Shown piece after piece: positions 53,306 to 64,000 of a DNA stretch of 64,000 nucleotides. Position numbers and translations under genes: made by a program. The notes beneath the pieces were generated by a model. It searched no databases. It was not told the origin of the DNA and saw only the letters and a program-made list of their open reading frames with translations. Position 1 is the first letter of the stretch, and each line of letters opens with the position of its first letter. Source of the DNA: an uncultured Fodinibius sp. GTDB taxonomy: Bacteria; Bacteroidota; Rhodothermia; Balneolales; Balneolaceae. The stretch is taken from NCBI GenBank assembly GCA_913057775.1, contig CAJXOG010000008.1, forward strand, positions 62,001-126,000, written 5' to 3'.

Positions 53306-53571
53306 GAACTTTTTCAGTCAATTATATTTCTAATTATTGGCAGTAAACAAAGAATAGTGCCGAAATATAGATATGATTGACTATTCCGATGACATGATAT
53401 TTTGATGATGAGATAGGTAATGTCATCATACGAACTTAAATGAAAGGTGCTATCGCCAGATTGATGAATTTAGATTTAGGCTAATCAAAATATGTGTTTT
53501 AGATAATTTTTTAGTTATTACCTGCAAAAAGGGTCGAACTTCCGCCCATATTGAAGGTGAAAAATAAAATT

Positions 53572-54381
53572 ATGGCTGATAATCACTACGAATACTTAGA
53601 TTCCTTTTTGGATCGGCAAAGAAGCCGGGGCCGTTTTACGTTTACTGCAGATGAGGTAAAGAAAGAGTTTGAGTTGTCTGAAAATGCTTTTAAAAAAACG
53701 ACTCAGCGATTACTTGAACAGAACAAAATTTCTCGACTACGGAACAAGTTCTATTTAATAATACCACCTGAATATTCTACGCGACAGACCCTTCCGTTTG
53801 GATATTTCATTGATGATTTAATGACCTTCCTGGATCGTGAATATTATGTTGGTCTATTGACGGCCGCCATGTACCATGGTGCTGCTCACCAACAACCTCA
53901 GCAACAATTTATCGTTCATGATTCATCCTATATTCGTCCTATAGACAATCGGCGTCAATCTATAGTTTTCTGTTTAAAAAAGGAGTGGAATAAAAAAGAT
54001 ATCCAAGAACAAAAAACAGATGCAGGTTTTATAAATATTTCATCACCTGAGCTAACAGCTTTTGATCTGTTATTCTATGTAGATCGGATTGGTGGATTTA
54101 ATAGAGCAGCTACTGTTTTATCTGAATTAGAAAGTAATATTGAATCGTCAGATCTCTTTAAAGCAGCACAAAGATTCAACCAAACAACGACCCTTCAACG
54201 ATTAGGATATATATTTGATGAGGTGCTCAGTAAAGTTAAATTGGCAGATGCTATTTATGAAGCTCTTGATGTACGTACATGTTATCCTACTAAACTAAGT
54301 ACGTCTGAAGAAAGCGATAATCAACGCGCTCCAAATCGTTGGAAAGTAATACCGAACATAGAAATAGAAGTAGAATTATGA
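53572..54381 (+). CDS. AbiEi-type antitoxin/transcriptional regulator, unpaired
   Basis: A protein of 269 residues from the ATG at 53572. The N-terminal winged helix reads FTFTADEVKKEFELSENAFK and the following part LRNKFYLIIPPEYSTR is typical of AbiEi family antitoxins. The middle contains YVGLLTAAMYHGAAHQQPQQ and the later ISSPELTAFDLLFYVDRIGG. AbiEi proteins normally repress and neutralise an AbiEii nucleotidyltransferase toxin whose gene follows directly. Here hsdR follows instead and no such gene is present. It may have lost its toxin or regulate the restriction genes. Confidence 0.75.
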   Translation: MADNHYEYLDSFLDRQRSRGRFTFTADEVKKEFELSENAFKKTTQRLLEQNKISRLRNKFYLIIPPEYSTRQTLPFGYFIDDLMTFLDREYYVGLLTAAMYHGAAHQQPQQQFIVHDSSYIRPIDNRRQSIVFCLKKEWNKKDIQEQKTDAGFINISSPELTAFDLLFYVDRIGGFNRAATVLSELESNIESSDLFKAAQRFNQTTTLQRLGYIFDEVLSKVKLADAIYEALDVRTCYPTKLSTSEESDNQRAPNRWKVIPNIEIEVEL

Positions 54382-60980: not shown

Positions 60981-61162
60981 GAGGGGATAATTCTTAAGGG
61001 GTTAAAACCAAATATTTCATGTGAGGAGAAGTTATATTAATTCCAAAGTAGGAATGTTATTGGTTATACTTTGTTTTTAACTAGATACTTTTCTAGGGTT
61101 GTAGTGACACTTTACCACCGCCAAGATCAATAAAAGGGAATAAATTTAAGTTTTTGGGGATT

Positions 61163-61978
61163 ATGGATGCTTTGCCGCAAAAAAGAATATTTAAAAAAGA
61201 TAGCTGCTTAGAAAATCTTATCGATGAAAGACAAAAAATAAATTCTATTAATAAAAAAATTCAGTACTTCCCAGATCCAAGTACTGAGTTTTGTAATGGG
61301 ATTAAGTGGGGCTCTTATAAAGAGGTTTTTACACCGGCTTACTGGAAATTGCAGTATTTAATACATGAAGAAAGTGAAGAAAAAATAGAAAATAGATTAG
61401 GTACAGATATATTAGAAGAAATTTCAGCCTGTATGCTTGGAGGGTTTGGGATCCCTTCAAACGTTGGTATAGCTGCATTCCATCGCTTAAAACAAAATAA
61501 TTTGCTTAAGCCTGGAGCTAGCAAAACAAAAATCCAAGAAGTATTGTCGGAACCAATACAAACTTCATCGGGGAATACAGTGCATTATCGATTTGTCAAC
61601 CAAAAGAGTAAATATTTGGCATTGTTTCTAAATAGAGACGATATATATGATATACCAACAGAAGATGCCTATGAGTTAAGGAAATGGCTATTGCAAATCA
61701 AAGGAATTGGCTTAAAAACAGCTTCTTGGATAACACGAAATTGGTTGGAAAGTGATAGAGTTGCAATTATAGATATACATTTATTGCGTGCGGGTAGGTT
61801 GACTGGAATATTTCCAGAAGTGAACGATATAAATTCTCATTATTTATTTTTAGAATCTCAATTTGTAGAGTTTTGTGAAAAATTAAATGTTAAAGCTTCA
61901 ATAATGGATGCTATAATGTGGCACCAAATGAGACGCTCAAATAGTTTTGCATTAAAAATGCTAAATACAATTAACTAA
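61163..61978 (+). CDS. OGG-like HhH-GPD DNA glycosylase (defence-associated)
   Basis: A protein of 271 residues from the ATG at 61163; a TTG three codons upstream is possible. The N-terminal ~150 residues are a helical, unusual front part. The C-terminal half is a helix-hairpin-helix glycosylase: LLQIKGIGLKTASWITRNW with the Lys at the position of the bifunctional OGG1 nucleophile, and VAIIDIHLLRAGRL with the catalytic Asp. The enzyme would be expected to remove an oxidised or modified guanine and nick the DNA, if these residues act as in OGG1. The sequence is A+T-rich like its downstream neighbours, with which it forms a compact operon. Confidence 0.85.
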   Translation: MDALPQKRIFKKDSCLENLIDERQKINSINKKIQYFPDPSTEFCNGIKWGSYKEVFTPAYWKLQYLIHEESEEKIENRLGTDILEEISACMLGGFGIPSNVGIAAFHRLKQNNLLKPGASKTKIQEVLSEPIQTSSGNTVHYRFVNQKSKYLALFLNRDDIYDIPTEDAYELRKWLLQIKGIGLKTASWITRNWLESDRVAIIDIHLLRAGRLTGIFPEVNDINSHYLFLESQFVEFCEKLNVKASIMDAIMWHQMRRSNSFALKMLNTIN

Positions 61979-61985
61979 ATATAAT

Positions 61986-62303
61986 ATGTCAGGATCATCA
62001 GGTGGAATTGGACCCTCTATTGGTCAGGAGGAAAGTTGCGAAGACCTTTCAATTCAAACTCATTTATCATCTCCAAATCCCGATATAATTGATACACTTA
62101 ATGAAGGAGATATTTTAACTATACGTTTAGGTGGAGCAACAGGACCTATTGAACTCGTTACGAATGAAGGCGAAGTGGTGGGTTCTTTACTCTCTGGTCG
62201 ACAAATGAAGTTGATTGAGTGTATTAATGATGGCCATCAGTATATTGGTGAGATAAGACAGATTGAAGAGGGTAATTGTGAAATATTGATAAGGTCATCA
62301 TAA
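61986..62303 (+). CDS. Small protein with a conserved Gly/Ser-rich N-terminus
   Basis: A 105-residue protein with an N-terminus MSGSSGGIGPSIGQEESCED, then LSIQTHLSSPNP, DTLNEGDILTIRL and a beta-rich end (GHQYIGEIRQIEEGNCEIL). The compact C-terminal part looks like a small beta barrel. The flexible Gly/Ser head is unusual and I recall similar small proteins beside defence genes. It starts 7 bases after the glycosylase and overlaps the following gene by one base (TAATG). No enzymatic motif is present; it may be a carrier or a target of modification. Confidence 0.6.
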   Translation: MSGSSGGIGPSIGQEESCEDLSIQTHLSSPNPDIIDTLNEGDILTIRLGGATGPIELVTNEGEVVGSLLSGRQMKLIECINDGHQYIGEIRQIEEGNCEILIRSS

Positions 62304-63508
62304 TGAAAATAGTTGGTGGAACTTATGGGGAGTATTGCCTAGAACCTCATTGGGAACAGATTTTCGGTTCTGGACTTAGAGCATGCCTATCAATTAGAGG
62401 TTTAGACAAAGATTATCCATTAAACCTTTTTACGACGGCTGACAATAGGATAAGGCAGTATTTATTGTCATTGAAGGAATCTCATAATCTTAGCTTAAGT
62501 ATTGAGAATATATTTAAGTCGCCTACTTTTGAATATGATTATCCTTTAGCTACGCCAAGGATCAATCCAAGACCAGATGCATACTTTAAAACTCGTCCCT
62601 TATTAGAAGTTGCGGATGACAATGTTTTGTACTTTGGAATGCTAGAAGCAGATGTTAATGTAAAGGGCGATAAGGTTGTTTATGATCCTCAATCTCCTTC
62701 AGTTCCAAAATTATTTTCGGATACGGTATCTGAGGCTAATCAACTAGTTACGGTAGTTAATTTATCAGAAGCTCAACTAATGAGTGGTGAAACCGAGTTA
62801 GATGATATAGTTGAGTATTTTTTTAAAGAAGAAGATTGTTATGGGTTGATTCTTAAAATGGGTGCTAAAGGTGCTTTTCTTTTTGAGGATAAGCAGACTA
62901 GAGTAAATATTCCTGTCTATAAAACAAATAAAGTTTGGCCTATAGGGTCTGGCGACGTATTTACTTCTATTTTTGCATATTTTTGGTTCAATGGCAAATC
63001 TTTAGAAGATTCAGCTAAGAAAGCTTCATTAGCAGCTGCAAGTTATGTCAATTCAAAGGGTTTTAATTTTGAAAGAGCTTTTAGAAATGAACCTTTTGAT
63101 GAGTTATATATTAAGGACTTTCCTAAAGAAAGCATTTATCTTGCAGGTCCTTTCTTCACCTTTTCTCAAAGGTGGTTAATCAGTCAAATCCGCAATTGTT
63201 TAAGTGGTATGGGATTAAAAGTTTTTTCTCCCTTACATGAAATCGGCATTGGAGATGCAGATGAAGTAGTTGAAGAAGATATCAATGCCATTGAGAATTC
63301 AGATTTAATTTTTGCGGTAGTGGATGGTTTAGATTCGGGGACACTATTTGAAATCGGATATGCAGTTTCAAAAGGAAAGCAGGTTATTGCATATACTGAA
63401 AATGAAACTGAAGAATCTTTGAAAATGCTGAAGGGTACCGGTTGTAAAATTGAGAAGGATTTAACTACAGCTATATACAAAACCTTTTGGGAGTTATGTA
63501 ATGGCTAA
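62303..63508 (+). CDS. PfkB-family kinase fused to nucleoside 2-deoxyribosyltransferase
   Basis: A 401-residue two-domain protein. Residues ~1-270 resemble a PfkB/ribokinase fold: the GGTYGEYCLEPHWEQIFGSG opening, NLSEAQLMSG, LILKMGAKGAFLF and the anion-hole motif PIGSGDVFTSIF, which takes the place of the usual GAGD. Residues ~275-400 are a nucleoside deoxyribosyltransferase: SIYLAGPFFTFSQRWLISQI, VFSPLHEIGIGD, DLIFAVVDGLDSGTLFEIGY and GYAVSKGKQVIAY. Glu in TLFEIGY is in the usual nucleophile context. It may split a deoxynucleotide and phosphorylate a product. The gene overlaps both neighbours. Confidence 0.8.
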   Translation: MKIVGGTYGEYCLEPHWEQIFGSGLRACLSIRGLDKDYPLNLFTTADNRIRQYLLSLKESHNLSLSIENIFKSPTFEYDYPLATPRINPRPDAYFKTRPLLEVADDNVLYFGMLEADVNVKGDKVVYDPQSPSVPKLFSDTVSEANQLVTVVNLSEAQLMSGETELDDIVEYFFKEEDCYGLILKMGAKGAFLFEDKQTRVNIPVYKTNKVWPIGSGDVFTSIFAYFWFNGKSLEDSAKKASLAAASYVNSKGFNFERAFRNEPFDELYIKDFPKESIYLAGPFFTFSQRWLISQIRNCLSGMGLKVFSPLHEIGIGDADEVVEEDINAIENSDLIFAVVDGLDSGTLFEIGYAVSKGKQVIAYTENETEESLKMLKGTGCKIEKDLTTAIYKTFWELCNG

Positions 63509-64000
63509 AGCAATATTACTTTCAGGAGGTTTAGATTCAATTGCTTTAGCTTATTGGAAAAGGCCTAACTATGCAATTACCATAAATTATGGTCAAAAAC
63601 CCGCTGAAGGTGAGATTCGAGCTTCCAGAGCTGTAGCCAAAAACTTGGGTCTAGAACATTCAGTTGTAGAAGTTGATTGTAGTAAACTAGGATCTGGGGA
63701 TCTTGCAGGAAAAGAAGCATTAGAGATGGCTCCAGAAAGTGAATGGTGGCCTTATAGAAATCAACTACTTGTAACGTTGGGTTGTATGAAAGGCATTTCA
63801 TTAGGAATTAATGAAATTATTTTGGGTTCGGTAAATTCAGATGATTTTCATGTAGATGGGACTCCAGAATTTTATGAAATGATAAATGAGTTGATATCGC
63901 TGCAAGAGGGTGATATTAAGGTAACTACGCCTGCAATCGAGTATTCAAGTGTAGAATTGATTCAGAAATCAAAGGTACCTAAGAAAGTTTTGTTTTGGGC
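63501..64000 (+). CDS. QueC-like 7-cyano-7-deazaguanine synthase family protein (cut by window end)
   Basis: The first 166 residues of a QueC-like PP-loop ATPase. The ATP-binding SGGLDSIALAYW lies near residues 8-20, then NYGQKPAEGEIRASRAVAKNL and WPYRNQLLVTLG. The last part reads GSVNSDDFHVDGTPEFYEMI, with IKVTTPAIEYSSVELIQKSK. The order matches QueC, but the RN motif context (YRNQ instead of GRN) differs, and the zinc cysteines of the C-terminus lie outside the window. The start overlaps the preceding gene by 8 bases. Divergent QueC copies occur in type IV CBASS (Cap9) and in Qat systems. Confidence 0.85.
   Translation, partial: MAKAILLSGGLDSIALAYWKRPNYAITINYGQKPAEGEIRASRAVAKNLGLEHSVVEVDCSKLGSGDLAGKEALEMAPESEWWPYRNQLLVTLGCMKGISLGINEIILGSVNSDDFHVDGTPEFYEMINELISLQEGDIKVTTPAIEYSSVELIQKSKVPKKVLFW

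Follow-up and report, generated by a model that had tools for sequence, protein, structure and literature searches.

What do the four overlapping genes do that close a 64,000-nucleotide stretch of DNA from an uncultured Fodinibius sp. (assembly GCA_913057775.1, contig CAJXOG010000008.1, forward-strand positions 62,001 to 126,000)? This whole stretch, here called the window, is part of a contig (C8) in a genome of 3.1 Mb. A sequence-only reading had recognised in the four genes a base-modification operon resembling the ancillary module of type IV CBASS, and had guessed at an undescribed defence system. We put a probability of about 0.62 on the following answer: the operon is predicted to be a mobile anti-phage system built around a third QueC-family protein-conjugation pair, and belongs to a widespread bacterial and archaeal family of apparent anti-virus systems, which probably attach a modified guanine at the N-terminal tip of a small protein of DNA-binding type. 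The gene calls of the sequence-only reading are borne out, in that all four window genes lie on one strand where it had placed them, overlapping or almost abutting, and Pfam agrees. The operon and the parts of the small protein that matter most here are as follows, in window coordinates.

61163-61978, + strand: OGG-like DNA glycosylase of the archaeal-type Ogg2 family (PF22175); ATG start, with a TTG alternative at 61154; Pfam Ogg-HhH 1.3e-15.
61986-62303, + strand: small acceptor-like protein of 105 aa, with an MSGSSGG tip, a flexible linker and a HIRAN-like domain.
61986-62003, + strand: tip (M)SGSSG of the small protein, predicted to be where it is modified; a start conserved among relatives.
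62040-62300, + strand: HIRAN-like beta domain (residues 19-105 of the small protein), from a fold match to the predicted model.
62303-63508, + strand: fusion of a PfkB-family kinase and a nucleoside 2-deoxyribosyltransferase (NDT), 401 aa; Pfam PfkB 1.5e-16 and Nuc_deoxyrib_tr 8.4e-19 in a single protein.
63501-64091, + strand (the window ends at 64000): QueC-like ligase of the PF06508 "Cluster 4" type, Cap9-like, 196 aa; Pfam QueC 5.2e-24.
64096-64752, + strand (beyond the window): SagB-like flavoprotein; TIGR03605 2.7e-18, slightly short of the model cut-off.

Whether these genes form a unit could be addressed by comparison across 94 loci, some on contigs that stop within the operon; a QueC profile scan contributed 80 genome loci (the best 80 of 301 relatives) and seven IMG/VR loci, and six plasmid loci were added. 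The QueC-like gene is present in 94, the PfkB/NDT fusion in 93, the small protein in 92, the OGG-like gene in 78 and the SagB-like gene in 67; a Dam-type methylase accompanies 29 loci and a dGTPase-like gene 20. The order small protein-PfkB-QueC(-SagB) is near-invariant, and because small protein-PfkB-QueC recurs in almost all 94 loci the arrangement cannot be put down to chance. PfkB and QueC overlap by a median of 4 bases, and the OGG-like gene is co-directional and upstream in 33 loci, convergent and downstream in 45. All-against-all clustering beyond the core genes recovered the Dam-type methylase in 25 loci and the dGTPase in 17, with all else in at most 6. A distant relative, whose QueC is 26-27% identical, retains the gene set together with a small protein bearing the tip MGSTGSG. 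In three loci (L113, L114, L126) the small protein and the PfkB/NDT gene are each present twice, around a single QueC.

Carriers are found in many bacterial phyla and include haloarchaeal plasmids, other plasmids and proviral contigs, with a patchy spread: a full-length match occurs in 4 of 198 phylum-mates and in 1 of 396 actinobacteria. Among viral contigs a single-sequence scan found nothing and an alignment-based scan seven contigs; one IMG/VR contig (L151, 1-923) has an OGG-like gene, together with a short open reading frame (ORF) resembling QueC, near phage-structural-looking ORFs.

The small protein, to which the Pfam scan assigns no family, consists of an N-terminal tip and a C-terminal domain, both conserved, joined by a linker whose length varies; one haloarchaeal copy combines a long acidic linker with the tip MGGGSGG. 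An M[SGTAC]G start is possible in 93 of 95 copies, mostly as MSGSG or MGGSG, and with Shine-Dalgarno fit as the sole start criterion it is found in 83 of the 95, against 4.0% of background ORFs. Of 79 small ORFs, 51 also match the stricter pattern M[SGT]G[SG][GS]; among 1801 other ORFs just 4 do, and those four at an internal Met only. The CD-NTase of the type IV CBASS locus examined begins with MGGSGGGFFSNSD, and the small protein of locus L124 with MGGSGGGFSPSG; the likeness of the tips is seen in MGGSGGGFF of the type IV CBASS CD-NTase and MGGSGGGFSP of a provirus small protein. The conserved MSG/MGG tip makes protein tagging likelier than base modification of nucleic acid, and on this point, the purpose of the operon, the sequence-only reading has to be revised.

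Invariant residues of the small protein are M1, G3, C18, G66 and C79, the two Cys being encoded at 62037-62039 and 62220-62222. Its predicted model (pLDDT 87) has residues 1-17 at low confidence (disordered) and 19-105 at high confidence. By fold (VIA-align Z) it matches lp_0118 (3k2y) at 12.2, the HIRAN domain of HLTF at 9.4, and Rad5 and HamB of Hachiman at 8.4, the HIRAN matches outranking SmpB (6.8). HLTF HIRAN domains have been crystallised with DNA, as the titles of the structures state.

The presumed partner of this tip is the QueC-like enzyme. The target of Cap9 is a CD-NTase whose tip reads MGGS; Cap9 conjugates 7-carboxy-7-deazaguanine (CDG) to its N-terminal Gly, placing NDG on that N terminus, and Qat defence requires the MGTS tip of QatB, as reported in PMC11996544 and PMC13279940. 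For the enzyme of this operon the nearest solved relative by profile is Cap9 (1.5e-13), practically level with QueC (2.6e-13), and the PADLOC QueC model matches at 1.2e-17. By structure, with a model built from a Larkinella relative that is about 59% identical to the window's protein, the nearest is again Cap9 (9nto, the Cap9-CdnD-NDG complex; Z 22.3, root-mean-square deviation 2.0 Å over 174), followed by QueC (Z 19.2, 3.2 Å) and QatC (Z 14.7). The canonical QueC motifs are altered in this family, and the Asp with which Cap9 reads the guanine edge (D117) has an invariant Asp as its counterpart. Across relatives the active sites of OGG, kinase, NDT and QueC keep their catalytic residues at 98-100%: the HhH Lys and Asp of the OGG-like family (K152 and D171, numbered by the aligned region) in 100% of 77 aligned relatives, the GSGD Asp of the kinase and the Asp/Glu of the NDT in at least 99% of 90. 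The nearest solved structures to the OGG-like protein are the N-glycosylase/DNA lyases 3fhg and 9o00.

A clue to the substrate is found in actinobacteria. At loci L112, L117 and L118 queD and queE directly follow QueC, and at L111 they lie 4.4 kb downstream; in these four genomes the operon QueC is the sole full QueC-type match, a canonical QueC was not found, and queD and queE were. The presence of queD and queE at operons of hosts without the queuosine pathway points to CDG, the QueE product, as the likely substrate of the QueC-like enzyme. A broad actinobacterial sample added zero further carriers to this comparison. The genome from which the window comes has overlapping queD and queE genes at another place on its chromosome, and it also has TGT; across its order QueE-like genes were found in 23 of 24 genomes. 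None of the 24 searched genomes of the order, this one included, has a canonical QueC, and this absence is therefore a lineage trait and not specific evidence. On a Roseivivax plasmid (L037, 9311-9850) a gene for a VUT-family transporter, of queuosine-precursor type, lies near the operon.

The genomic surroundings were assessed by comparing the flanks of 20 loci with the housekeeping queC regions of the same 20 genomes. The locus flanks contain Dam-type methylases (7) and dGTPases (6, best 2.5e-151), as well as DrmD, pPIWI-RE, PDC-S28, Fic, Tn7-like genes, resolvases and phage repressors, whereas the control flanks gave few, weak cross-matches (best 3.5e-26). The two sets are clearly unlike, and a housekeeping role was rejected; the routine occurrence in housekeeping contexts that would have spoken against the sequence-only reading was not seen. 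Several loci without the usual OGG carry other candidates beside the core: KwaAB (Kiwa) adjoins the small protein at L157, AriAB (PARIS) overlaps QueC at L087, L039 has a ThsB-type TIR gene and 8xMP, L156 has 8xMP and a gene matching PADLOC OGG, and in L038 and L093 a dGTPase immediately follows QueC. At L112, Gabija follows the operon.

Could this be a known system? Type IV CBASS proper was ruled out, there being no CD-NTase and no TGT. The sequence-only reading had noted both absences in the window, and the check that it proposed of some 10 kb downstream found neither; no cyclase match was obtained among the operon and downstream genes, no TGT/Cap10 homologue in any of the 94 loci, and the genome's sole TGT is on another contig. 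A type IV CD-NTase query matched at L041 only, where a separate, tip-less CBASS cyclase lies 4 kb away. The kinship that had been proposed with the CBASS ancillary genes nevertheless stands, in the QueC-like enzyme nearest Cap9 with its predicted acceptor bearing an MGGS/MSGS tip. The window's OGG gave no PADLOC match; a gene in the related locus L156 matches PADLOC OGG (1.4e-33), a model which we take to be the CBASS one. The differences are that the predicted acceptor here is a small HIRAN-like protein, and that a PfkB/NDT fusion and a SagB-like protein are present; a deoxyribosyltransferase had been tentatively suggested as part of type IV CBASS, but the fusion is absent from the single such locus examined. 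Qat was likewise ruled out, with no QatA KAP ATPase or QatD TatD gene among the operon and downstream genes scanned. Like qatABCD, the operon pairs a QueC-family enzyme with a partner whose conserved tip sits on a disordered arm, but its 196-aa QueC-like protein is a QueC core without the N- and C-terminal extensions of QatC, and QatB is alpha-helical with an MGTS tip where the small protein has a HIRAN-like beta domain and an MSGS tip. The system lacks the defining features of both CBASS and Qat, and its best placing is within QueC-based protein-conjugation immunity.

The QueC subfamily itself has been noticed before. Libby et al. (2026; PMC13329287) describe a QueC "Cluster 4", find that about 89% of its members have PfkB-PF05014 as a neighbour, and suggest purine salvage. 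The operon shares the fused PfkB-PF05014 neighbour and the subfamily signature CH(x)5CxxCxGCxK, in the window's protein as CHKNSIACGNCRGCTK; a second motif reads YGQ(x)5E here and YGQ(x)6E as published. The small protein, OGG, SagB and the queD/queE linkage go unmentioned in the main text of that paper, whose supplement may list more neighbours. Brig1 and Brig3 establish that glycosylases can be anti-phage effectors, Brig3 being a precedent for a DNA glycosylase effector (PMC13160076); these too are glycosylases within defence operons, but they are kin of uracil glycosylases with a known modified-cytosine target, whereas the glycosylase here is of the Ogg2 family. DpdA, the TGT-family enzyme of Dpd 7-deazaguanine DNA modification, was not found, there being no TGT homologue in the 94 loci. 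Searches of the open-licence literature on QueC with OGG, HIRAN or NDT found no description of the full operon or of a tagged-protein reading. The guess of an undescribed defence system appears right, as do the gene calls, the CBASS kinship and the missing CD-NTase; the base-modification purpose is not supported.

From sequence, models and context a mechanism of four steps can be proposed, ranked in falling confidence. First, CDG, supplied by QueD and QueE encoded either in the operon or elsewhere in the host, would be adenylated by the QueC-like enzyme and, once Met has been removed, coupled to the N-terminal amine of the small protein, in the way that Cap9 modifies the CD-NTase; this adenylation and transfer is probable. 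Second, the HIRAN-like domain would bind DNA, possibly 3' ends or single strands that phage replication exposes, and so bring the tagged arm there; DNA-end binding is plausible from the fold. Third, and speculatively, a partner with a purine pocket would read the tag or convert it into a nucleoside or nucleotide; this partner would be the PfkB/NDT fusion in every system and OGG in most. Fourth, an effector would strike phage or host, plausibly OGG by base excision in most systems, the window's included, and elsewhere a dGTPase, a TIR/membrane protein, or PARIS-like or Kiwa-like genes. An unlikely elaboration is that PfkB/NDT makes the conjugated 7-deazaguanine a protein-linked (deoxy)nucleotide, that the HIRAN-type DNA-binding protein thereby bears a covalent nucleotide arm, and that this arm licenses OGG or another effector, in an immune system of modular build whose tagging core is constant and whose effectors are swappable.

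Several observations weigh against the conjugation system proposed here. CBASS and Qat expose a Gly, but 78 of 93 small proteins would expose a Ser, and Cap9 Y115, the Tyr that stacks on the base, is replaced by His. The HIRAN assignment is a match of fold only, a sequence-model scan giving no HIRAN match at E<=1. In Rhizobium sp. BK251 and two metagenome-assembled genomes neither QueD nor a convincing QueE was found, and Blastococcus gave no match to a QueE model of B. subtilis type, which misses or under-scores other QueE types. The adjacent PARIS, Kiwa and Gabija genes may be ordinary island neighbours. The loci share ancestry and are non-independent, and the genome sample is the best 80 of 301 matches.

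The best surviving alternative, which we consider improbable, is a modified-nucleotide pathway in which the QueC-like enzyme makes a free 7-deazaguanine, NDT adds deoxyribose, PfkB phosphorylates, and the product is incorporated into DNA, with OGG (and Dam) reading or restricting in the manner of restriction-modification. QueD/QueE, QueC, NDT and kinase do form a chemically sensible route to a modified deoxynucleoside monophosphate, and NDTs accept purines; the intact catalytic residues of OGG, the Dam-like genes of 29 loci and the Brig1/Brig3 precedent (PMC13160076) fit as well. Such a pathway, however, leaves the MSG/MGG tip and the near-obligate small protein (92 of 94 loci) unaccounted for, no TGT/Cap10-like gene lies near any locus, and the canonical QueC motifs are altered. 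Purine salvage, the role proposed for PF06508 "Cluster 4" and the PfkB-NDT next to it, is a good deal less probable still: about 89% of Cluster 4 members adjoin PfkB-NDT (PMC13329287) and the window protein bears the signature of the cluster, but the mobile elements and defence genes around the loci, their occurrence on plasmids and proviral contigs, their patchy distribution, the OGG, PARIS, Kiwa and TIR partners and the small-protein tip all argue otherwise. Least probable is that SagB-like dehydrogenase, NDT and kinase build a nucleobase-derived molecule on the small protein as its carrier and that this molecule is then released, as in peptide-scaffold biosynthesis, an idea that draws on the SagB-family match and the two invariant Cys but meets with 27 of 94 loci, complete cores among them, in which SagB was not found, and with no other recurrent gene for product release or export.

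Reports of protein deazaguanylation date from 2025; it is known in type IV CBASS and, by inference, in Qat. If the predicted conjugation system is real, deazaguanylation would be found in a third system, on an unrelated acceptor, and so become a general immune chemistry; for QueC "Cluster 4", purine salvage would give way to a function that can be tested, with a small HIRAN-like protein as its acceptor. The actinobacterial loci bearing queD and queE offer a direct route to testing the substrate.

Beyond SagB the window's locus continues with two larger genes.

64789-65847, + strand (beyond the window; L002 from 14790): Mrr-type nuclease.
65906-69151, + strand (beyond the window; L002 up to 19152): PLD/SNF2 helicase, 1081 aa.

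These were considered as core parts and rejected, a relative of Mrr occurring in just three other loci and no relative of the helicase being clustered. The helicase has weak similarity to DrmD, DpdE and DpdK, the DpdE and DrmD matches falling well under curated cut-offs. Upstream of the operon, an AbiEi-type antitoxin gene (53551-54381; PADLOC AbiEi 1.4e-93), with no adjoining AbiEii toxin seen, immediately precedes the type I restriction genes. Past the helicase, the opposite strand carries a gene for a 242-aa protein, a dGTPase (PADLOC 7.2e-61) and a SIR2-HerA defence pair, the last at 73308-76926, outside the window (L003 3309-6927). A dGTPase followed by the 242-aa protein, possibly nucleotidyltransferase-like by eye, stands beside the system in three Bacteroidota loci: the window's own (L002 19153-19881 and L003 1-1223), L073 and L093.

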